64,000 bases of DNA from Haloarcula salina (GTDB lineage: Archaea > Halobacteriota > Halobacteria > Halobacteriales > Haloarculaceae): NCBI RefSeq assembly GCF_010119195.1, contig NZ_WRXL01000004.1:124001-188000 (forward strand), read 5' to 3'. This document shows, in pieces, positions 48,010-64,000 of the stretch. The notes below the pieces were generated by a model, which was given only the letters and a program-made list of their open reading frames with translations, did no database searches and was not told the DNA's origin. The position numbers were made by a program, and so were the translations under genes. Numbering within the stretch: the stretch's first letter is position 1; every line of letters begins with the position of its first letter.

Positions 48010-49077
48010 TCAGTCGAGTCGATACCGGAGCAACGCGGCGATACCGCCGAGGTTCGCGAGCTGCTGGCCGGGGGCGAACTCGGCGGAGAAGACGGTCACG
48101 TCGCCGCCCTTCTGTTCGGTCGTCTCGATGAGCCGATCTACGTCGACGTCCCAGTCACCCTCGCCGGCTCGCTCTTTCCGGAGCCGGTCGTCGAGGACCA
48201 GGAGCGTCTCGATCGCGCCGTAGTCGGCCGCCTTCGCGACTTCCTCGGGACCGTAGGCGACCTCCGCGCCCTCGCCGATGCGGGCCATCAGTTCGTCGAT
48301 GTAGTCCGCCTCCTCGGCGATGCGGGTCTGTTGTTGCACGTCCTCGACCGCGCCGCGCTTGAGGACCTCGTGGACGCCGCGGTCCCCCACGCCCGCGGTG
48401 TCGACGACCGTGATCTGGGCCGCGATCTCGGGAATCTCGTCTTCGAAGTAGTCGAGCGCGTCCTGCTTGGTGAAGCCCGGGCCGGCGAGGATGTAGGCGT
48501 CCACGTCCTGGCGCTTCAGCACGTCCGACAGCTCGGCGAACAGCTCCTTTCGCGGGCGGGCGTACTCGCCCTTGCCCGTGGTCGAGGTGAGGCTCGCTCG
48601 CTCCTCGGTCCCGTACTGGGCGACGGTGTGGACGTGGGCCTCGCCCTCCTCGACGGTGGCGATGGCCACGTCGGGGTTCTCCGTGGCCTCGACGGCCTCC
48701 TCCAGGCGGTCGGCCTGATCGGATTTCAAGTGCTTCTCGATGGTCAGTTCCGTGTGCTCCTCGACGTTGATGGTGTGGTGAAAGCCCAGCTGGTCCTCGC
48801 GCGAGCAGTCGACGATCTCGCCTCCGACGCGCAGGCGGTTGGCGAACTTCGCGAACTCCACGTCCGTGACCTCGATCTGGAGCCACATGTGCTCGCGCTC
48901 GCCGCCCGAGTCCCGGAGGTTGTCGTCGTTGCGCTGGATCCGCCGGGTGGTGTCGCCCGAGACGAGGTCGCCCGGTTCGACGACGTGCGAGAGGTGCCAG
49001 AGGTCGTCCAGCGTCTCGGGGACCACCTCGATGCGCTCGCGCCCCTCGGCGGTGGTCTCCCGGCTCTTGATCTGCAT
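48010..49077 (-). CDS. pelA: Pelota (Dom34), mRNA surveillance and ribosome rescue factor
   Basis: A 355-residue archaeal pelota. The N-terminal Sm-like domain is residues 1-130 ([32 protein letters not shown]); the central eRF1-like domain includes [20 protein letters not shown] and [16 protein letters not shown]; the C-terminal domain includes [26 protein letters not shown]. It lacks the GGQ of true release factors, as expected. With aEF1A/ABCE1 it splits stalled ribosomes. A longer reading upstream is possible, but [20 protein letters not shown] is the family's normal start. Confidence 0.95.
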
Positions 49078-49383
49078 ACCGGAGGGTCCGCCGTACGGAC
49101 ACAAGTGCCCTGCTATTCGATGTGGAACACGCACGGCACGGCGGGGTCGCGGCACCGAAGGCGGGGGCACAACGCCGTCGATGGAGGGTGCCGAATACTC
49201 TACCCCCTTCGGTTCGTCTAGAAACCGCCCGACGCCCCGCCGATCGATCCGCGACGTGCGCCAGTCGAACCACACCCCAATAGCGTATATGGAGCTATTG
49301 AATAATATTACCGCCCGAATCGCTACAATTATTACGGATACCGAACCATGATGTGACGGGTTCACAGGGAGGGGAACTGGACG
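49078..49383. other. Intergenic region with AT-rich promoter-like patch
   Basis: 306 nt between the divergent pelota gene and the 58-residue ORF. The first ~190 nt is GC-rich without clear features. At 49278-49300 there is a perfect 7-bp inverted repeat (CAATAGC / GCTATTG) around GTATATGGA, followed by a strikingly AT-rich stretch (GAATAATATTACC, ACAATTATTACGG). This looks like a promoter/operator for the small ORF. A Shine-Dalgarno-like GGGAGGGG (49367-49374) precedes its ATG. Confidence 0.45.
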
Positions 49384-49560
49384 ATGGAACAAATTTTCAA
49401 ACTTGAATATCACCCCGTGGGGATGAACCCGCGCCGTATCCGGTTTCTCCTCCTGCCGAACGCCGAAACTATCAAGCAGGTAACTGAAGAGCGCGTCGAA
49501 GGCGACTGGCGGGAACTCCGCGTCGAAGTGATCGACTACTTCGAGTACTCCGACGAGTGA
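49384..49560 (+). CDS. Small 58-residue ORF of unknown function
   Basis: An intact 58-codon frame starting [20 protein letters not shown] and ending [11 protein letters not shown]. It looks coding: amphipathic pattern, acidic C-terminus, GC-rich third positions after the first 15 codons, a Shine-Dalgarno-like GGGAGGGG 9 nt before the ATG and an AT-rich upstream region. There is no recognised domain; a small alpha/beta protein is predicted from the pattern only. A hairpin lies about 70 nt downstream. Confidence 0.5.
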
Positions 49561-49632
49561 CGACGGCGGGTACGGACGACCGGCCACCCAACATCACCGT
49601 GCCCGGGCGATAGTAACAATTGAAACGATTTA

Positions 49633-55205: not shown

Positions 55206-56060
55206 ATGGTCCGTCGATCACTGCTGTACACGCCGGGCGACGACCGGGAGATGCTGGAGAAGGCCGTCCGAACGGACGCGGACGCGGTCATCTTCGACCT
55301 CGAAGACGCCGTGGCCCCCGACGAGAAGGGGGCCGCGCGCCGGACTGTCCTGGAGACGCTCGACGCCCTCGACGACCCGACGCCGGCGGTCAGCGTCCGC
55401 GTCAATCCGTACGAGCGCTCCGGCCGGGACGACGTGGCCGCTGTCGTCGGCGAGGCGTCGTCTCCGCCCGAGTTCGTCGTGCTCCCGAAAGCGGAGGGGG
55501 CTGACGACGTCGCGACCCTTCGGGACCACCTCGCCGACCTCGGGGCCGAAGGCGTCGGTATCGTCCCGCTGATCGAGACGGCGGCGGGCGTCCAGGCGGC
55601 CGACGAAATCGCGGCGGCGGCCGGCGTGACTGCGATCGCCTACGGCGACCAGGACTTCACCGCCGATATCGGTGCCACCGTGACCGCCGAGAAGACCGAG
55701 TCGCTCTACGCGCGCCAGCGCGTCGTCGTCGCGGCCGGTGCCGCGGGCGTCGACGCGGTCGACACCGTCTACACCGACATCGCGGACGCCGAGGGGCTCC
55801 GCGAGCAGGTCGAGACGGTCGTCGAGTTCGGCTTCGACGGCAAGCTCGCCATCCACCCCGACCAGGTCCCGGTCATCAACGAGGCGTTCACGCCGGACTC
55901 GGACGAGATCGAGTGGGCTGAGCGCGTGATCGACGGCGAGCGGGCGGCCGACGAGGCGGGTGACGGCGTGTTCACCGTCGGCGGGCAGATGATCGACCCG
56001 CCGCTCGTCGAGCGCGCGAGGACGATTCTCGGCCGCGCGAGGGCCGCTGGAAAGCGGTAA
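55206..56060 (+). CDS. HpcH/HpaI-type CoA-ester lyase (CitE-like)
   Basis: A 284-residue TIM-barrel lyase of the citrate lyase beta/malyl-CoA lyase family. Characteristic sites: RRSLLYTPGDDREMLEKA, metal-binding VIFDLEDAVAPDEK, SVRVNPYERSG, VLPKAEG, IVPLIETAAGV, AYGDQDFTADIG and KLAIHPDQVPVINEAF. It cleaves a 3-hydroxy-acyl-CoA such as malyl-, methylmalyl- or citramalyl-CoA; which one cannot be told. In Halobacteria related enzymes serve the methylaspartate cycle. The ATG at 55206 is preceded at about 27 nt by a TATA-like TAGTTTTT (55174-55181). The acyl-CoA synthetase follows 96 nt downstream. Confidence 0.9.
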   Translation: MVRRSLLYTPGDDREMLEKAVRTDADAVIFDLEDAVAPDEKGAARRTVLETLDALDDPTPAVSVRVNPYERSGRDDVAAVVGEASSPPEFVVLPKAEGADDVATLRDHLADLGAEGVGIVPLIETAAGVQAADEIAAAAGVTAIAYGDQDFTADIGATVTAEKTESLYARQRVVVAAGAAGVDAVDTVYTDIADAEGLREQVETVVEFGFDGKLAIHPDQVPVINEAFTPDSDEIEWAERVIDGERAADEAGDGVFTVGGQMIDPPLVERARTILGRARAAGKR

Positions 56061-56082
56061 ATTACCATCGGATCGGTCGTTG

Positions 56083-56091
56083 CTTATAAAG
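56083..56091 (+). promoter_or_regulatory. TATA box of the ADP-forming acyl-CoA synthetase gene
   Basis: CTTATAAAG lies about 70 nt before the ATG at 56157, implying a short 5' leader of roughly 40 nt. Confidence 0.45.
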
Positions 56092-56156
56092 AATGATGAT
56101 TACCGGCCACCATCGGAAGTAGGTTCAGGCGGCCGCCGCGAGAATCGTCCCGCGTC

Positions 56157-58310
56157 ATGACATCGAATGGCGCAACGAGCGCGGAGACAGAGACGCACGC
56201 GACGCCGGACCTGGAGCGACTGTTCGACCCCGACTCGGTCGCAGTCGTCGGGGCCAGTCCGGACTCCTTTTACTCGGGGAACCTCGTCGATAACCTCCTC
56301 GACTACGGCTTCGACGGCGACCTCTACCCGGTCAACCCGAGTCGGGACGAGGTATGGGACCGGCGGTGTTACGACGACGTGGACGACGTGCCGGAGACCG
56401 TCGATCTCGTCGTCGTGAGCGTCCCACGAGAGTACGTCGTCGACGTGGTCCGCGCGGCGGGAGACCGGGGCGTCCCCGTCGCGCTCGTGCTCACCGCGGG
56501 GTTCTCGGAAGCCGACGAGGCCGGCGCGGCCGTCGAAGCGGACCTCGCCGCGGCCGCCGAAGACGCAGGTATCCGTGTCGTCGGGCCGAACTGCATCGGC
56601 GTGATGTCGTCCGCGGGCGCGACGCTCACCTCGACGTGCTCGCGCGAGCCCGAACCCGGCGGCATCGGCCTCGTCAGCCAGTCCGGCGCGCTGGCGTTCA
56701 CCACTTTCTTCGAGCGGGCGGCCGATCAGGACCTGCACTTCAGCCACATCGTCTCGACCGGGAACGAGACCGACCTGACGCTCACGGACTACGTCGCCTA
56801 CCTGGCCGAACAGGATGACGTCGACGTGATCTGCACGTACGTCGAGGGCATCGAAGACCCGGAGCGGTTCATGCGCGTCGCCGAGCGCGCCGTCCGAAAC
56901 GGCACGCCCGTCCTGACGGTCAAGATCGGCCAGTCGGACCAGGCGGAGGCGGCCACCCTCTCGCACACCGGGTCGCTCACCGGCGACGACGACGCCTGGG
57001 CGGCCGCCTTCGACCAGACCGGCGTCCAGCGGGTCCCCGACATCCCCGACCTCCTCGGTCGCGCGAACGCGCACACCGGGGGCGCACCGCCGGACGGCGA
57101 CCGCGTCTGTATCGCCTCGACCAGCGGCGGCCTCGCGAGCCTGCTCGCCGACATGGCCGCCGAGCGCGGCCTCGCGCTCCCGGACATCGACGGGGCGACC
57201 GAGCAGGCGCTCCTCGACCTGGACGACCTCCTGACCTACGGCGAACTCCGGAATCCCGCCGACATCCGCGGGTACGGCGCGGACGTGCTCCCGGAAATCG
57301 CCGATGCGCTCCTCAACGACGACGGCTTCGACGCCTACGTCTTCGCCATCGGCCTGTCGGGCGTCGACGACCGCGCCGCCGACATCGCCGCCGACCTGGC
57401 GGCCATCGCGGCGCGGGCCGAAGACCCGGTGTACGTCCTCTGGACCGGCCGGAAGGTGCCAGACGACCCGAGCGAGACGCCGGCCTACGCCCGGCTCCGC
57501 GAGTCCGTGCCGTTCTACGAGGACCCGAGCCGGTGTCTCGACGCCGTCGCGTCCACTGTCGAGTTCGCCGCCGCTCGCGACCGACTCGCCGACCAGTCTC
57601 CCCGGAGCGCCCTCGCCGCTGACCGCGGGGCGTCGGCGGATCTCGACCTCCCGCGCGGTCGCGTTCTCACGTGGGAGGAAGCCGAGTCCCTCCTCTCGGC
57701 GTTCGACGTACCGACGGTCGAGACGCGGCTGGCGACCAGCGCAGACGAGGCCGCCGACGCGCTGGCCTCGATGGACGGGTCTGCGGTCCTCAAGGTCGAC
57801 TCGCCGGAACTGCCCCACCGGACCGACGCAGGGGCCGTCAGGCTCGGCGTCGAGTCCGCCGAGGAGGCACGGGAGGCCTACGACGACGTGTACACGGCCG
57901 CTCGGACCCGCGTGGACGACGACGATATCGCCGGGATTCTGGTCCAGCCGATGGTCGACGGCGGCGTCGAGGCGATGCTCGGCGTCGCGCCGGGCGACGT
58001 GTTCGGCTCGCTCGTCACCGTCGGGCCCGGCGGCGTGCTCGTGGAGGTGCTCGACGAGAGCGCGACGCTCGTCCCGCCGTTCTCTCGGGCCGACGCGCGT
58101 CGAGCCGTCGAGGAGACGGCCCTCGCCGACGTGTTGACCGACCGGCGCGACGGGGAGCCGCTGCCCGTCGACCCGGTCGTCGACCTCCTGGTGTGCGTCG
58201 GCGACCTCGCCGCCTCGGTCGAGTCCGTGGCCGAACTCGACCTCAACCCCGTCGTGGTCACCGCCGACGGCCCCGTCGCCGTCGACGCGCTGGTCCGGAC
58301 GACCGAATAA
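56157..58310 (+). CDS. ADP-forming acyl-CoA synthetase (acetate-CoA ligase type)
   Basis: A 717-residue single-chain enzyme of the NDP-forming acyl-CoA synthetase family. The CoA-binding Rossmann domain is VAVVGASPDSFYSGNLVDNLLDYGFDGDLYPVNP. Succinyl-CoA-ligase-like domains follow (PNCIGVMSSAG; IGLVSQSGALAFTTF), with the phosphohistidine H270 in ATLSHTGSLTGDD. The C-terminal ATP-grasp part starts near residue 500 (LTWEEAESLLSAFDVPTVETRLA; AVLKVDSPELPHRTDAGAVRLGV; VAELDLNPVVV). It interconverts acyl-CoA + ADP + Pi with acid + CoA + ATP, saving the thioester energy. Beside the CoA-ester lyase it suggests a catabolic step. The acid is unknown. Confidence 0.92.
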   Translation: MTSNGATSAETETHATPDLERLFDPDSVAVVGASPDSFYSGNLVDNLLDYGFDGDLYPVNPSRDEVWDRRCYDDVDDVPETVDLVVVSVPREYVVDVVRAAGDRGVPVALVLTAGFSEADEAGAAVEADLAAAAEDAGIRVVGPNCIGVMSSAGATLTSTCSREPEPGGIGLVSQSGALAFTTFFERAADQDLHFSHIVSTGNETDLTLTDYVAYLAEQDDVDVICTYVEGIEDPERFMRVAERAVRNGTPVLTVKIGQSDQAEAATLSHTGSLTGDDDAWAAAFDQTGVQRVPDIPDLLGRANAHTGGAPPDGDRVCIASTSGGLASLLADMAAERGLALPDIDGATEQALLDLDDLLTYGELRNPADIRGYGADVLPEIADALLNDDGFDAYVFAIGLSGVDDRAADIAADLAAIAARAEDPVYVLWTGRKVPDDPSETPAYARLRESVPFYEDPSRCLDAVASTVEFAAARDRLADQSPRSALAADRGASADLDLPRGRVLTWEEAESLLSAFDVPTVETRLATSADEAADALASMDGSAVLKVDSPELPHRTDAGAVRLGVESAEEAREAYDDVYTAARTRVDDDDIAGILVQPMVDGGVEAMLGVAPGDVFGSLVTVGPGGVLVEVLDESATLVPPFSRADARRAVEETALADVLTDRRDGEPLPVDPVVDLLVCVGDLAASVESVAELDLNPVVVTADGPVAVDALVRTTE

Positions 58311-58470: not shown

Positions 58471-59197
58471 GTGATCTGAAATTCTCCGTGTCGACTTTCA
58501 GACAGTTCAATCGGGGGTCGTCAGCGACTTCCAGGCGCAGTTCCCGGACATCTACTCCATCGAGTTCGAGAACGCGTTCTACGCCGACGAGGGCGACTGG
58601 ATCGAGTCGCTGCTGGTCACCGCGGAGACCGAACTCGACCCCGAGGCGATGGTCGACGCCATCGACCGCGCCGAGCTGTTCTTTCACGAACGCGTCTCGG
58701 TGGACGCCTCGGAGAAGCCGACGTACCGGCTGACCATCGTCGCCCACGAACCGTACCCGTTCCTCCTGGGCGTGCTCCTTCGCGGGAGGGCGATCCCGAA
58801 CCGGCTGAAGCTCTACGACGGCCGTTTCGACGGCGTCATCACCGTCAAAGAGTGGGACGACTTCAGGGCGCTCGCCGACCAGATCGACGAGCGCTTCGGG
58901 AAGTTCGAACTCCAGAGCGTGAACCAGGTCGAGACGACCGGCGAACCGCTCGGGAGCGGCCAGCTCGGCCGCGTGTTGCGCAACGAACTCTCACAGGAGC
59001 AGCTGTCGGTTCTCCGAACGGCTCACTCGATGGGGTACTTCGACGTGCCGCGCGGGGCGACGGCCGACGACCTCGCGACGGAACTCGACATCGCTCAGTC
59101 CACGCTCAGCGAACGGCTCCGGCTCGCGGAGAAACAGCTCTTCGACCTCGTCTTCTCCGGCGGTCCGTCGCCGACCGCCGAGGCCGACGCGGAGTGA
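58471..59197 (+). CDS. HTH_10 (bacterio-opsin activator-type) regulator with disrupted start
   Basis: The coding frame from TCT (58475) to the stop at 59197 gives SEILRVDFQTVQSGVVSDFQ... It includes the sensor-like N-terminal half (YRLTIVAHEPYPFLLGVLLRGRAIPNRLKLYDGRFDGVITVKEWDDF) and a complete HTH_10 domain (LSQEQLSVLRTAHSMGYFDVPRGATADDLATELDIAQSTLSERLRLAEKQLF). No ATG, GTG or TTG opens this frame before residue 59 (ATG 58649). The GTG at 58471 would be the expected start, but one extra A at 58474 puts it out of frame and creates GTG-ATC-TGA. Either initiation is unusual, the gene is damaged, or the base is an error. It probably regulates the adjacent transporter or CoA genes (inference). 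Confidence 0.75.
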
Positions 59198-59416: not shown

Positions 59417-61342
59417 ATGTCCCGTGATAAACCATTAGAAATCGAGACAGGTACCACGTCGCGGCGTCGGTTCATCAAGATCGCGAGCGCGGCCGGACTG
59501 GCCGGCATGGCCGGCTGTTCTGGCGGCGACGGCGGCGACGGTGGAACGGAGGGCGCCAGCGGCGACGGTCGGTCGATCGAGACGAAGTTCTGGGAGGAGT
59601 GGCCCGTGGAGACGAAGGGGTCGTCGGTCAACGACGAGGCCGTCCAGTTCGAGTACACCGCGGTCGAGGGGCAGTCCCTGTCCGCGCTCGACATGCACTT
59701 CGCGCAGTCGGAGACGCCGTGGATGCGCGAACACGCGCTGATGATCCAGGAGTCGTTCAGTTCCATCGGCGTCCCGACGAACCTCGTCAACGTCCAGCCG
59801 AGCACCCGGTACGGAGAGTTCTGGCGCGCTGACATCGGCCACCCGGTTCCCGTGGTGATGAACCTCCACGGGCCCGACCCCCAGCGCGGCCTCGACCCGA
59901 ACCCGTTCCTGATGCGCGCCCACCCGGAGACCGGTGGGAACTACTACAACTACAAGAACGACGAGATCACCGAACTGCTCGACGAGCAGGCCCAGACGAT
60001 CGGCGACCAGCAAAAGCGCGCCGAGATCTGCCAGGAGATCCAGACGAAGCTCAGCGAGGACGCCTACGTCATCGCCTCGAACTTCCCCAACGTCATCACG
60101 GTCGCGAACACCGCCGACTGGGAGGGGTACGTGCCGACGCCGGGCAACGGCACGACCCGCGACTCGTTCATCTGGACGCAGGTGAACCTCCAGCCGACGG
60201 GCGACTCGACCACGTGGGTGAAAGGCGTCACCGCCGGGATGCAGGGGACGAACCTCCCCTGGTCCACCGGCGGCCTCGAAGAGAAGCGGCTGCTGAACGT
60301 CTACGACGGCCTCTACGACGCCTCGCCGCAGCTCGAAATCGTCCCGGGCCTGGCGACCGGCCACGAGGTCATCGACGACACCACCGTCGAGATGGACCTC
60401 CGCGAGGGCGTCACCTGGCACGACGGCGAGTCGTTCACGCCCGAGGACGTGAAGTTCAGCGTCGAGATGTACAAGCAACACACCGCCCCCCAGCAGGGAC
60501 CGTTCTACCGGACCATCGACAGCGTCGAAGTGGTGTCGAACCAGGGCGGCGGGCGCGTCCGGTTCAATCTCACCGAGCCCGACGCCGCGTTCCTCACCCA
60601 GCGCGCCGTCCGGAGCGCGATCATCCCCAAGCACCGCTGGCAGGACGTCGACAGCCCCGGGCAGTACAACCCGGACAACCCCGTGGGAACGGGGCCGTTC
60701 AGCTTCGTCAACTGGGAGCAGGGGTCCGAACTCCGCCTGGAGAAGTACGAGGATCACTGGCTGTGGGACGACGACACCCGCCGGGAGATCATGGGCGAGC
60801 AGTACTTCGTCCCCGGCGACGGCATCGACGAGATGGTCGAGTCCAACGTCGGGAACGTCTCGACGCTCATCGGCGCGATGCAGTCCGGCGACATCGACGC
60901 CATCGGGGCCACCGTCTCGAACCAGCAGGCCGAACGCGCCGCGAACGCGAGCGGCGTCGAGAAACAGACCGCGCGCAACTACGTCCCGACGGACGTCCAC
61001 ATCAACCACATCGTCCCGCTGTTCCGCGACAAGACGTTCCGCGTCGCGCTCAGCCACGCCGTGGACAAGCAGGGCTTCGTCGACGGCGTCCTCGGCGGAC
61101 GGGGCGAAGCCATCGACGGCCAGAACCTCATCACGCCGCTGCTGACGCCGTTCTACGGCGAAACCGAGCCCTACGAGTACAACGTGGACAAGGCGCGGTC
61201 GATGCTCCAGCAGGCGGGGTACACCTTCAACGGCGACGACATGCTCGTCTGGCCGACCGGCGACGCCTGGGACGCCTTCGCCGAGCGGGTCGAGGACGGT
61301 CACGCGACGCGGGCCGAACTCGACCAGGCGGACTTCTCCTGA
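59417..61342 (+). CDS. Peptide-type ABC substrate-binding lipoprotein, apparently circularly permuted
   Basis: A 641-residue Tat-exported lipoprotein: TTSRRRF with a lipobox ending at C34 (GLAGMAGC). The mature protein has SBP_bac_5 segments in the wrong order. Residues about 76-250 look like the usual C-terminal part (RYGEFWRADIG..., NYYNYKNDEITELLDEQAQTIGDQQKRAEICQEIQTKLSEDAYVI). Residues about 290-640 look like the usual N-terminal and middle parts (RLLNVYDGLYDASPQLEIVPGLA, MDLREGVTWHDGESFTPEDVKFS, NPVGTGPFSFVNWEQG, FRVALSHAVDKQGFVDGVL, YNVDKARSMLQQAGYTF). The chain then stops at AELDQADFS. The first gene of the transporter operon; the ligand is probably a peptide or similar solute. Confidence 0.88.
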   Translation: MSRDKPLEIETGTTSRRRFIKIASAAGLAGMAGCSGGDGGDGGTEGASGDGRSIETKFWEEWPVETKGSSVNDEAVQFEYTAVEGQSLSALDMHFAQSETPWMREHALMIQESFSSIGVPTNLVNVQPSTRYGEFWRADIGHPVPVVMNLHGPDPQRGLDPNPFLMRAHPETGGNYYNYKNDEITELLDEQAQTIGDQQKRAEICQEIQTKLSEDAYVIASNFPNVITVANTADWEGYVPTPGNGTTRDSFIWTQVNLQPTGDSTTWVKGVTAGMQGTNLPWSTGGLEEKRLLNVYDGLYDASPQLEIVPGLATGHEVIDDTTVEMDLREGVTWHDGESFTPEDVKFSVEMYKQHTAPQQGPFYRTIDSVEVVSNQGGGRVRFNLTEPDAAFLTQRAVRSAIIPKHRWQDVDSPGQYNPDNPVGTGPFSFVNWEQGSELRLEKYEDHWLWDDDTRREIMGEQYFVPGDGIDEMVESNVGNVSTLIGAMQSGDIDAIGATVSNQQAERAANASGVEKQTARNYVPTDVHINHIVPLFRDKTFRVALSHAVDKQGFVDGVLGGRGEAIDGQNLITPLLTPFYGETEPYEYNVDKARSMLQQAGYTFNGDDMLVWPTGDAWDAFAERVEDGHATRAELDQADFS

Positions 61343-61346
61343 CACA

Positions 61347-62330
61347 ATGAGCTTCCAGCGATTCCTCATCAAACGGACCGCCATCGCGGCGATGCTGACG
61401 CTCATCTCGGTCAGCGTCATCTTCGCCTCGCTCCGATTACTCCCGAGCGACCCGTTCAGCGGGCTGGTCGCCTCGGGAGCGCTGACCGCCGAGCAGGTCA
61501 CCCAGCTCCGCGAGATGTACGGCCTCGACGAGCCGATCTACGTGCAGTACCTGAAGTACGTCAGGAACCTGTTCACGCTGCAGTTCGGCATCTCGCTGAC
61601 TCAGCAGCGACCGGTCGGGGAGATCATCATCCCCGCGCTGATGAACACGCTCGTCTTGCTCCTGCCGGCGCTGGTCGTGACGGCGGTCGTCAGCTCCGTC
61701 GCCGGGATGTACGCCGGCTGGAATCGCGGGTCGAAGTTCGAGCAAGCCGGCATCGTGGTCACCACGTTCTTCCGCGCGTCCCCGATCTTCGTGACGGGGA
61801 TCCTCCTGCTCATCGTCTTCTCCTACGGGCTGAACTGGCTGCCCGCGTTCGGGATGCGAAGTCCGATGGCGAACCCGCAGGGGTACGCACAGACGTACCT
61901 CTCGGTGGACTTCCTCAAGCACTACATCCTCCCCTTCACCGCGACGGTGCTGTTCTACAGCGGCGACTTCCTGATGCTCGCGCGGAACTCCGTCGTCGAG
62001 CGCAAGGGCTCGGAGTTCCTCATGCTCCACCGCGCGAAGGGGCTCTCGGAGATGAAACAGCTCGCCCGCGCGGGGCGCAACTCGCTGCTCCCGCTGGTGA
62101 CCTACTTCGCGCTCCGGACGGGGATGCTGTTCCAGGGCGTCATCACGCTTGAAGTGGTCTTCGCGTGGCCGGGCATCGGCCGCGCGCTCGTCCAGGCGAT
62201 CCTCAATCAGGACTACCCCACCGTCCAGGCCGCCGTGTTCATCATGGCGCTCGCGGTCATCGTGATGAACCTCACTGCCGACATAGCGTATGCGAAACTC
62301 GATCCGACGATCAAGGCGGGTGACGTCTGA
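61347..62330 (+). CDS. ABC transporter permease, DppB type
   Basis: A 327-residue permease with six helices. The N-terminal motif is FLIKRTAIAAMLTLISVSVIFASLRLLPSDPF, typical of DppB/OppB. A periplasmic loop ends in GLDEPIYVQYLKYVRNLFTLQFGISL. The EAA-type cytoplasmic loop is FLMLHRAKGLSEMKQLARAGRNSLLPLVTY, which contacts the ATPase. The ATG follows the binding-protein stop by 4 nt, and the stop overlaps the next start (TGATG). Confidence 0.92.
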   Translation: MSFQRFLIKRTAIAAMLTLISVSVIFASLRLLPSDPFSGLVASGALTAEQVTQLREMYGLDEPIYVQYLKYVRNLFTLQFGISLTQQRPVGEIIIPALMNTLVLLLPALVVTAVVSSVAGMYAGWNRGSKFEQAGIVVTTFFRASPIFVTGILLLIVFSYGLNWLPAFGMRSPMANPQGYAQTYLSVDFLKHYILPFTATVLFYSGDFLMLARNSVVERKGSEFLMLHRAKGLSEMKQLARAGRNSLLPLVTYFALRTGMLFQGVITLEVVFAWPGIGRALVQAILNQDYPTVQAAVFIMALAVIVMNLTADIAYAKLDPTIKAGDV

Positions 62331-63250
62331 TGTCCGGGTACTCCCTCGACGCCGAGACCGCACGCGACCGGCTCAGCTCGGAGTTCGGTCGCGCGAAAGA
62401 GACCATGGCCGTCGTCTGGCAGGACACCGGGGCGAAGTTCGGCCTCGTCATCCTCGCCAGCTTCGTGTTCATCGGGCTCTTCGGCCCGTACATCGCGCCG
62501 TACCACCCGATCGAGGACACGCTCCGCCGCCAGGGCGCGATGATGCGACTGACCGCGCCCAGCGGGAAGGCGCTGCTCGGAACGACCTCCTTCGGGAAGG
62601 ACGTGCTGAGCCAGTTCCTCGCCGGCGCGCGGCCGACGCTCATCATCGGGCTGTTCGGCGGCATCGGGACCGGAATCCTGGGCTTCCTCGTCGGCCTCAC
62701 GAGCGGGTACTTCGGCGGTCGCATCGACGAGTTCCTGATGCGGCTGACCGACCTCACGTTCGCGCTCCCGCTCCTGCCGATGGCGCTGCTCATCCTGTCG
62801 TTCGTCTCGCCGAACGTCTGGCTCATCACCGCCGTGCTGGTGATCTTCCTCTGGAAGATGCCGGCGCGGGTCATCCGCTCCGAGGTGATGACCGTCAAGG
62901 AGCGGACGTTCGTGAAGTCCGCTCGCGCGAGGGGCGCGGGCCACCTGCGGACGATGTTCCTCCACGTCGCGCCGAACGTGCTGGGCATCGGCTTCCTGTA
63001 CACCGCCTACGCCGTCGGGTGGTCGATCGTCGCCGGGGCGTCGCTCGCGTTCCTCGGGTTCGGTGACCCGACGACCACCTCCTGGGGCCGGATGCTCCAG
63101 CAGGTGTTCCGCTCGGGCGCGATTCGGGTCGCCTGGTGGTGGGTGCTCCCGCCCGCGTTCGGTATCGCCGCCGTGACGACCTCGGTCTTCCTCGTCGGGC
63201 GCGCCTTCGAGGAGATCGTCAACCCCGAACTGCAGACGGAGGAACAATGA
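62330..63250 (+). CDS. ABC transporter permease, DppC type
   Basis: A 306-residue permease with the extended N-terminal helix of DppC/OppC proteins (FGLVILASFVFIGLFGPYIAPYHPIEDTLRRQG), LGTTSFGKDVLSQFLAGARPTLIIGLFGG, and the EAA loop FVKSARARGAGHLRTMFLHVAPNVLGIGFLYTAYAVGWSIVAGASLAFLGFGDP. It pairs with the DppB-type protein. Its stop overlaps the ATPase start by ATGA. Confidence 0.92.
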   Translation: MSGYSLDAETARDRLSSEFGRAKETMAVVWQDTGAKFGLVILASFVFIGLFGPYIAPYHPIEDTLRRQGAMMRLTAPSGKALLGTTSFGKDVLSQFLAGARPTLIIGLFGGIGTGILGFLVGLTSGYFGGRIDEFLMRLTDLTFALPLLPMALLILSFVSPNVWLITAVLVIFLWKMPARVIRSEVMTVKERTFVKSARARGAGHLRTMFLHVAPNVLGIGFLYTAYAVGWSIVAGASLAFLGFGDPTTTSWGRMLQQVFRSGAIRVAWWWVLPPAFGIAAVTTSVFLVGRAFEEIVNPELQTEEQ

Positions 63251-64000
63251 GCCTGCTCGAAGTCGACGACGTGAAGATCACGTATCGAACGCCCGACAAA
63301 GACGTCCACGCGGTCAACAACGTCTCCTTCTCCATCGAGGAGGGGGACAACTACGGGCTCGTCGGCGAGTCCGGCTCCGGGAAGTCGACCCTCGCGAAGT
63401 CCGTGCTCGGACTGCTCGACGACAACGGCGAGATCCGCTCCGGGAGCATCACGTTCAACGGGCGCGAGCTGACGAACCTCTCCGAGCGGGAGTGGCGCGA
63501 CGTCCGCTGGGAGGAGATCGCCTACATCCCACAGAGCGCGATGGACTCGCTCGACCCCGTGATGACCGTCGGCGAGCAGATCCGCGAGGCGATCCACACG
63601 CACAAGGACGTCACCGACGCCGCCGCCAACGAGCGCGTCGAAGAGGTCTTCGACATCGTCGGACTCGATCCGGGGCGGACCGAGGACTACCCCCACGAGT
63701 TCTCGGGCGGGATGCGCCAGCGCGTCACCATCGCGATGGCGCTGGTCCTCGACCCCGACCTCATCATCGCCGACGAGCCGACGACCGGGCTGGACGTCAT
63801 CGTCCAGGACAAGATCGTCCAGAAGCTCATGGAGATCCAGGAGGAGATCGACAGCTCGCTGCTCCTCATCACCCACGAGGTCGGCGTCGTCGCGGAGACC
63901 TGCGACGAGGTGTCGGTGCTCTACGGCGGGAAGGTGATGGAGCAGGGCAAGACCTTCGACGTGTTCAACGACCCGCACAACCCCTACACGATGGGGCTGA
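63247..64000 (+). CDS. ABC transporter ATPase, DppD type (truncated by window)
   Basis: The first 251 residues of an oligopeptide-type ABC ATPase; it continues beyond the right edge. Walker A GESGSGKST (40-48), Q-loop YIPQSAMDSLDPVMTVGEQI, signature FSGGMRQRVTIAMAL, Walker B LIIADEPTTGLD and H-loop LLLITHEVGV are all intact. It is closely similar, segment by segment, to NBD1 of the fused protein at 52086 (both have DYPH-FS-GMRQRV, VVQDKI/VIVQDKI, IDSSLLLITH and VMEQG), which points to duplication. A DppF-type partner probably follows outside the window. Confidence 0.93.
   Translation, partial: MSLLEVDDVKITYRTPDKDVHAVNNVSFSIEEGDNYGLVGESGSGKSTLAKSVLGLLDDNGEIRSGSITFNGRELTNLSEREWRDVRWEEIAYIPQSAMDSLDPVMTVGEQIREAIHTHKDVTDAAANERVEEVFDIVGLDPGRTEDYPHEFSGGMRQRVTIAMALVLDPDLIIADEPTTGLDVIVQDKIVQKLMEIQEEIDSSLLLITHEVGVVAETCDEVSVLYGGKVMEQGKTFDVFNDPHNPYTMGL

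Follow-up and report, generated by a model that had tools for sequence, protein, structure and literature searches.

Does the gene at positions 59417-61342 on the plus strand of the window, by which we mean the whole 64,000-nucleotide stretch of Haloarcula salina DNA that was analysed, encode an ABC transporter substrate-binding protein (SBP) whose two halves have changed places, and is such an order peculiar to this genome? The original prediction read the 641-residue Tat lipoprotein as a circular permutation of an SBP_bac_5 protein. The swapped order is confirmed. We consider it very likely that the gene encodes a cluster C SBP (DppA/OppA/NikA-like) that has been circularly permuted in nature, taking this jointly with the origin, the clamshell fold and the transport steps set out below. 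The swap is the hallmark of a transporter subfamily common to archaea and bacteria and is not peculiar to this genome.

The order of the two blocks in the chain

The chain opens with a Tat signal and lipobox (residues 1-34, 59417..59518), read from the sequence as a twin-arginine motif, SRRRFIK, and the lipobox MAGC at residues 31-34. A low-complexity spacer, mostly of low pLDDT, then leads from the lipid anchor to the fold (residues 35-85, 59519..59671). The first folded part is a C-terminal-type block (residues about 86-246, 59672..60154), equivalent to the second half of domain III plus the C-terminal part of domain I. The former ends of the protein are joined by a linker of about 19 residues (about 247-265, 60155..60211) that holds neither a stop nor an extra domain and is conserved across the subfamily. 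It is followed by an N-terminal-type block (about 266-610, 60212..61246) that takes in the opening part of domain I, then domain II, then the first half of domain III, as far as the AGY helix. A family-specific C-terminal extension with the stop codon (61247..61342), carrying a predicted helix at 615-627 and ending in ELDQADFS, completes the gene, all of these features lying on the plus strand.

The Pfam SBP_bac_5 profile (PF00496) scores 187.1 bits on this protein against a gathering score of 32.4, yet its match places residues 307-610 on profile positions 1-286 of 368 and then ends, a colinear match to the full profile being absent. Higher-scoring NCBIfam models of the SBP family likewise end near residue 606-618. 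In the single-sequence Pfam search the first 258 residues taken alone gave no SBP_bac_5 match, and the whole protein gave SBP_bac_5 and the Tat signal only, with no homology to the type I sugar-binding (MglB) proteins; the PDB matches shown belong to cluster C. These observations could be read as an ordinary SBP_bac_5 protein that was stripped of its C-terminal third and acquired an unrelated domain at its N-terminus, with no permutation at all. The first block, however, aligns to the part of the parent that is missing from the Pfam match. Against the Listeria chain 5isu, phmmer placed query residues 306-603 on chain residues 56-337 and query residues 105-231 on 355-475. An HMM built from 31 ordinary haloarchaeal SBP_bac_5 proteins matched model positions 387-528 to residues 101-246 (i-E 1.9e-8) and positions 62-374 to residues 276-610 (i-E 6.6e-57), with its signal region (model 6-49) aligning to the Tat signal ahead of both blocks. 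The two blocks together fill the parent model without overlap. Model positions 374-528 precede 62-374 in all 30 of the proteins searched (the window SBP and 29 homologs), whereas an ordinary paralog used as a control, L042, aligned as a single colinear stretch over model positions 2-536, and further ordinary controls (L076 and the ORD proteins) were likewise colinear.

The same picture came from structures in the PDB. A family profile built from 33 permuted proteins matched AppA (1xoc) in two pieces, profile positions 224-550 on residues 20-346 (i-E 9e-69) and 56-212 on 362-512 (i-E 2e-15); the C-terminal-type block gives the weaker match, since domain III is where these proteins vary. Among the best 60 of the 98 matching chains none spanned the junction, and the stretches listed for them begin at profile position 217 or later. 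A profile of the junction itself (171 positions) aligned without interruption to the window gene, over positions 2-171 (E 4e-60), and on the ordinary paralog from contig 1 of the same genome it split into 86-171 and 2-58 in the opposite order. When the window SBP was artificially rotated, its single-sequence Pfam score rose only from 187.1 to 189.3 bits, with the match reaching profile position 329; the gain is small and was therefore not taken as proof, the profile comparisons being used instead. The predicted secondary structure of the first block also follows that of the same part of an ordinary SBP: as strings scored against L042, the native order reached 229.8 and the reversed controls at most 236.2, the best score being the 339.6 obtained on rotation at residue 261. 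Fusion to an unrelated domain is thus highly improbable, and what emerges is a swapped match to one parent, with both block boundaries of the original prediction borne out by the HMM and by the PDB chains. The SBP_bac_5 profile itself accounts for the second block (1-286); for the first block an SBP_bac_5 match is lacking, and it is the ordinary-SBP HMM that recognizes it. Neither of the outcomes that the original prediction named as fatal to it, a colinear alignment of SBP_bac_5 or a first block belonging to some unrelated domain, was observed.

Predicted fold, chain ends and distribution

AlphaFold2, given an alignment of 33 homologs from which two plasmid-record rows were excluded, predicted a single confident fold for the window SBP (pLDDT 86, pTM 0.85), with very low confidence confined to the signal and the spacer. 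Foldseek scored this model lower (TMt mostly 0.37-0.56, rmsd mostly 6-12 A, best E 1e-18) than a model of the ordinary paralog searched against the same library (TMt 0.69-0.90, rmsd mostly 3-5 A, best E 7e-44), a difference to be expected from a sequential aligner, which cannot follow a permutation. The protein is predicted to form one bilobed clamshell, and in the model the break falls between a helix and a strand of one fold. By homology this break, which follows the LLxxAGY helix and precedes the next strand, is equivalent to about residue 340-355 of DppA/AppA and lies within domain III of DppA, which we take to span residues 260-479. By these limits the new chain ends are in a loop inside domain III (lobe II) and therefore not at the crossover between the lobes, where the original prediction had put them. 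Its companion claim, that the attachment of the lipid anchor has moved, agrees with the predicted fold, in which the anchor would tether lobe II, through domain III, instead of domain I.

The swap extends far beyond the window. Of the 391 haloarchaeal genomes searched, at least 127 contain an end-to-end match to the junction profile at an E-value of about 1e-45 or lower, and about 70 contain relatives of the window SBP at 41-84% identity over most of its length. A scan of genome contigs added about 30 permuted loci. They include loci in Brevibacillus reuszeri, Martelella, Bosea and Lentibacter, in Trueperaceae, Desulfobacterales and Burkholderiaceae bacteria and a Bacillota MAG, and, among archaea outside the haloarchaea, in a Desulfurococcaceae archaeon and a Geothermarchaeota MAG; Alphaproteobacteria and Bacillota are among the groups sharing the swap. 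A Ponticoccus protein (H15) that looked colinear in a joined BLAST table is actually an ordinary SBP and serves as a control; positions joined from BLAST hits were therefore not relied on.

That the arrangement in the window genome is an assembly error, a frameshift or a gene-fusion artefact has a negligible chance of being correct: direct support for it was not found, a related MAG copy is frame-broken, and against it stand the same order in those haloarchaeal genomes and in many bacteria, together with purifying selection on the gene (dN/dS about 0.12, 0.19 and 0.20 against the orthologs L015, L018 and L022). The frame-broken copy is a permuted SBP in an Aquamicrobium MAG (L133:5878-7564), for which either a pseudogene or an assembly error is possible.

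Within the genus, a full-length ortholog occurs in only 6 of 24 sampled genomes, the present one included. Copies at 79-85% identity occur in other families, several of them on large plasmids. This patchy distribution (window 59417-63250) suggests horizontal transfer. Permuted SBPs were also found on annotated plasmid records of Nitratireductor, Maritalea, Neorhizobium, Natrononativus and Halobaculum.

Origins of the permutation

When a tree was computed from un-permuted columns, the 24 permuted rows retained after thinning grouped as a single clade (SH-aLRT 96), separate from the ordinary proteins. A Symbiobacterium protein, L118, falls among the ordinary SBPs in this tree, and L102 and L127 group together outside the main permuted clade. 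An AU test rejected a single group of the 26 rows that share the main permutation type (p 0.003); for the main clade with L118 the value was p 0.033, and the main clade with L102 was not rejected (p 0.128). The permease tree, which is independent of the SBP, placed 33 of 34 permuted rows in one clade (SH-aLRT 100), with L118 elsewhere, where the permeases of an ordinary Ciceribacter operon are the sisters of its own (support 99). The closest relative found for L118 is likewise an ordinary SBP from Ciceribacter; the two share 51% identity over 349 residues and 36% over the swapped block. The L118 protein (L118:5809-7548), which comes from a MAG, has its chain ends at nearly the same loop as the main permuted family. 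Judged from these sequence comparisons, L118 is an independent permutation at nearly the same loop, and the permutation of cluster C SBPs has at least two origins.

Two further proteins depart from the common layout. In L127:5866-7596, from a Clostridiales DTU087 MAG, model positions 237-520 come first and 25-238 second. Its best matches run through the C-to-N linker of permuted proteins, and therefore its ends have probably been moved again inside an already permuted lineage. In L102:91-2403, from Geothermarchaeota, the chain runs on past the permuted SBP through MG2/Ig-like domains to a C-terminal hydrophobic helix, a layout that would suit anchoring by a stalk at the new C-terminus.

Tandem duplication followed by trimming is the standard route to circular permutants. 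By this route the ancestral SBP gene would have been duplicated in tandem and the copies fused, the first copy then being trimmed of its N-terminal part and the second of its C-terminal part. Such trimming would have placed the break in the domain III loop after the 'LLxxAGY' helix and left a short domain I linker to join the former C- and N-termini. A tandem-duplicate intermediate was not found. The main permutation most likely originated once, in the ancestor of the transporter subfamily, which spread by vertical descent and horizontal transfer through haloarchaea and several bacterial phyla; elsewhere permutation arose again, independently.

It could be argued that selection favoured the permutation for its effect on the place of the lipid anchor, an idea proposed for Tp0684 (PMC4990184). 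Haloarchaeal and Bacillota members of the permuted family are lipoproteins, which together with the shift of the anchor from domain I to domain III fits such selection. Permuted members from Alphaproteobacteria, Trueperaceae and Desulfobacterales, however, have no detectable lipobox, and therefore the anchor shift cannot explain the permutation in general; L102, with its Ig-like domains and C-terminal hydrophobic helix after the permuted fold, also speaks against it. We regard anchor-driven selection as unlikely. Another reading, which we think probable, is that cluster C SBPs are prone to permutation, one ancient event having given the subfamily, L118 representing a second and L127 a third, so that the position of the chain ends would be an evolvable feature not tied to anchoring.

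Transport function and comparison with known systems

The genes next to the window SBP are those of a transporter. A DppB-type permease (61347..62330, NCBIfam Opp/Dpp B models) adjoins the SBP in 18 of the 18 haloarchaeal neighbourhoods of the permuted SBP that were compared. The DppC-type permease (62330..63250, NCBIfam) is present in all 18, as is the ATPase that starts at 63247 and continues past the window end at 64000, its 706 residues being about the length of two fused ATPases. An HTH_10 transcription regulator (58649..59197, PF04967) is found upstream in 14 of the 18. Two genes for possible metabolic partners precede it, a CitE/RipC-like C-C lyase (55206..56060, PF03328 and NCBIfam) with a counterpart close to the SBP in 8 of 18 (a match of only 48 residues in one case, and only 35-37% identity in three), and an ADP-forming acyl-CoA ligase (56157..58310) near it in 12 of 18. 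All of these genes are on the plus strand. The presence of the ligase and the lyase nearby weakly suggests an organic acid or its conjugate as the substrate of the permuted transporter, C4-C5 acids being candidates. In many haloarchaea the lyase and ligase pair (window 55206-58310) stays near the permuted transporter despite changes of order and strand. Elsewhere in the window, the longest open reading frame of the pelota gene (48013-49587, minus strand) extends about 175 codons further upstream than the pelota match does, and its start is probably over-extended.

A permuted SBP might also have degenerated or taken up another task, for instance as a sensor or an orphan lipoprotein, and no longer serve as a transport receptor. 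We hold this to be very unlikely, as the gene leads a conserved SBP-permease-permease-ATPase cluster, a second SBP does not lie beside the permuted genes in the loci examined, and the permeases are co-inherited with the permuted SBP in the permease tree. Nearly every bacterial or archaeal locus has permeases next to its permuted SBP. Both a secretion signal and an operon with DppBC-type permeases and an ATPase are present at the window SBP. The protein would capture its solute outside the membrane, close on it, dock and hand it over to the permeases and ATPase encoded downstream, most likely working as an ordinary clamshell receptor for them. The earlier expectation of a functional protein is supported by the purifying selection and by the conservation of this cluster in all 18 neighbourhoods.

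It is rare for a natural circular permutation to define a whole receptor family, and the precedent we found among ABC-transporter SBPs belongs to a sugar-binder class. In the open-access papers searched, a permuted cluster C SBP was not found to be described, and Tp0684 was the only natural SBP permutation to turn up; the permuted cluster C transporter subfamily is apparently undescribed so far. A large set of archaeal and bacterial proteins annotated as 'ABC transporter substrate-binding proteins' has an unrecognised topology: Pfam aligns only about half of the chain, sequential structure search scores a partial match, and among the PDB matches listed no chain so arranged was found. L118 and the ordinary L202, 51% identical over the shared block, are a natural pair for testing the effects of chain order and tether on clamshell receptors.

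Compared with the known cluster C SBPs (DppA, OppA, AppA, NikA; PF00496), the window SBP is homologous over the whole fold, has the same operon partners, is likewise secreted or lipid-anchored and is predicted to form a clamshell; it differs in that its order is rotated, with the C-terminal third first and both termini placed within domain III. That clamshell folds can accommodate new ends is demonstrated by engineered permuted periplasmic binding proteins in biosensors. Those proteins are man-made, whereas the window SBP is natural, and permuted SBPs of this kind supply natural break sites for biosensor design. The nearest natural counterpart is Tp0684/TpMglB-2 of Treponema pallidum, a natural circular permutation for which a type Ic/cluster Bc was proposed (PMC4990184). 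That protein is lipid-anchored and functional in ligand binding, and its class is found in a wider set of bacteria, spirochaetes and Gram-positives (PMC4990184). Like Tp0684, the window SBP is a naturally permuted, lipid-anchored binding protein of an ABC transporter that has spread beyond one species; unlike it, Tp0684 has the type I, cluster B sugar-binding fold, is broken at another site and belongs to a separate sequence family.
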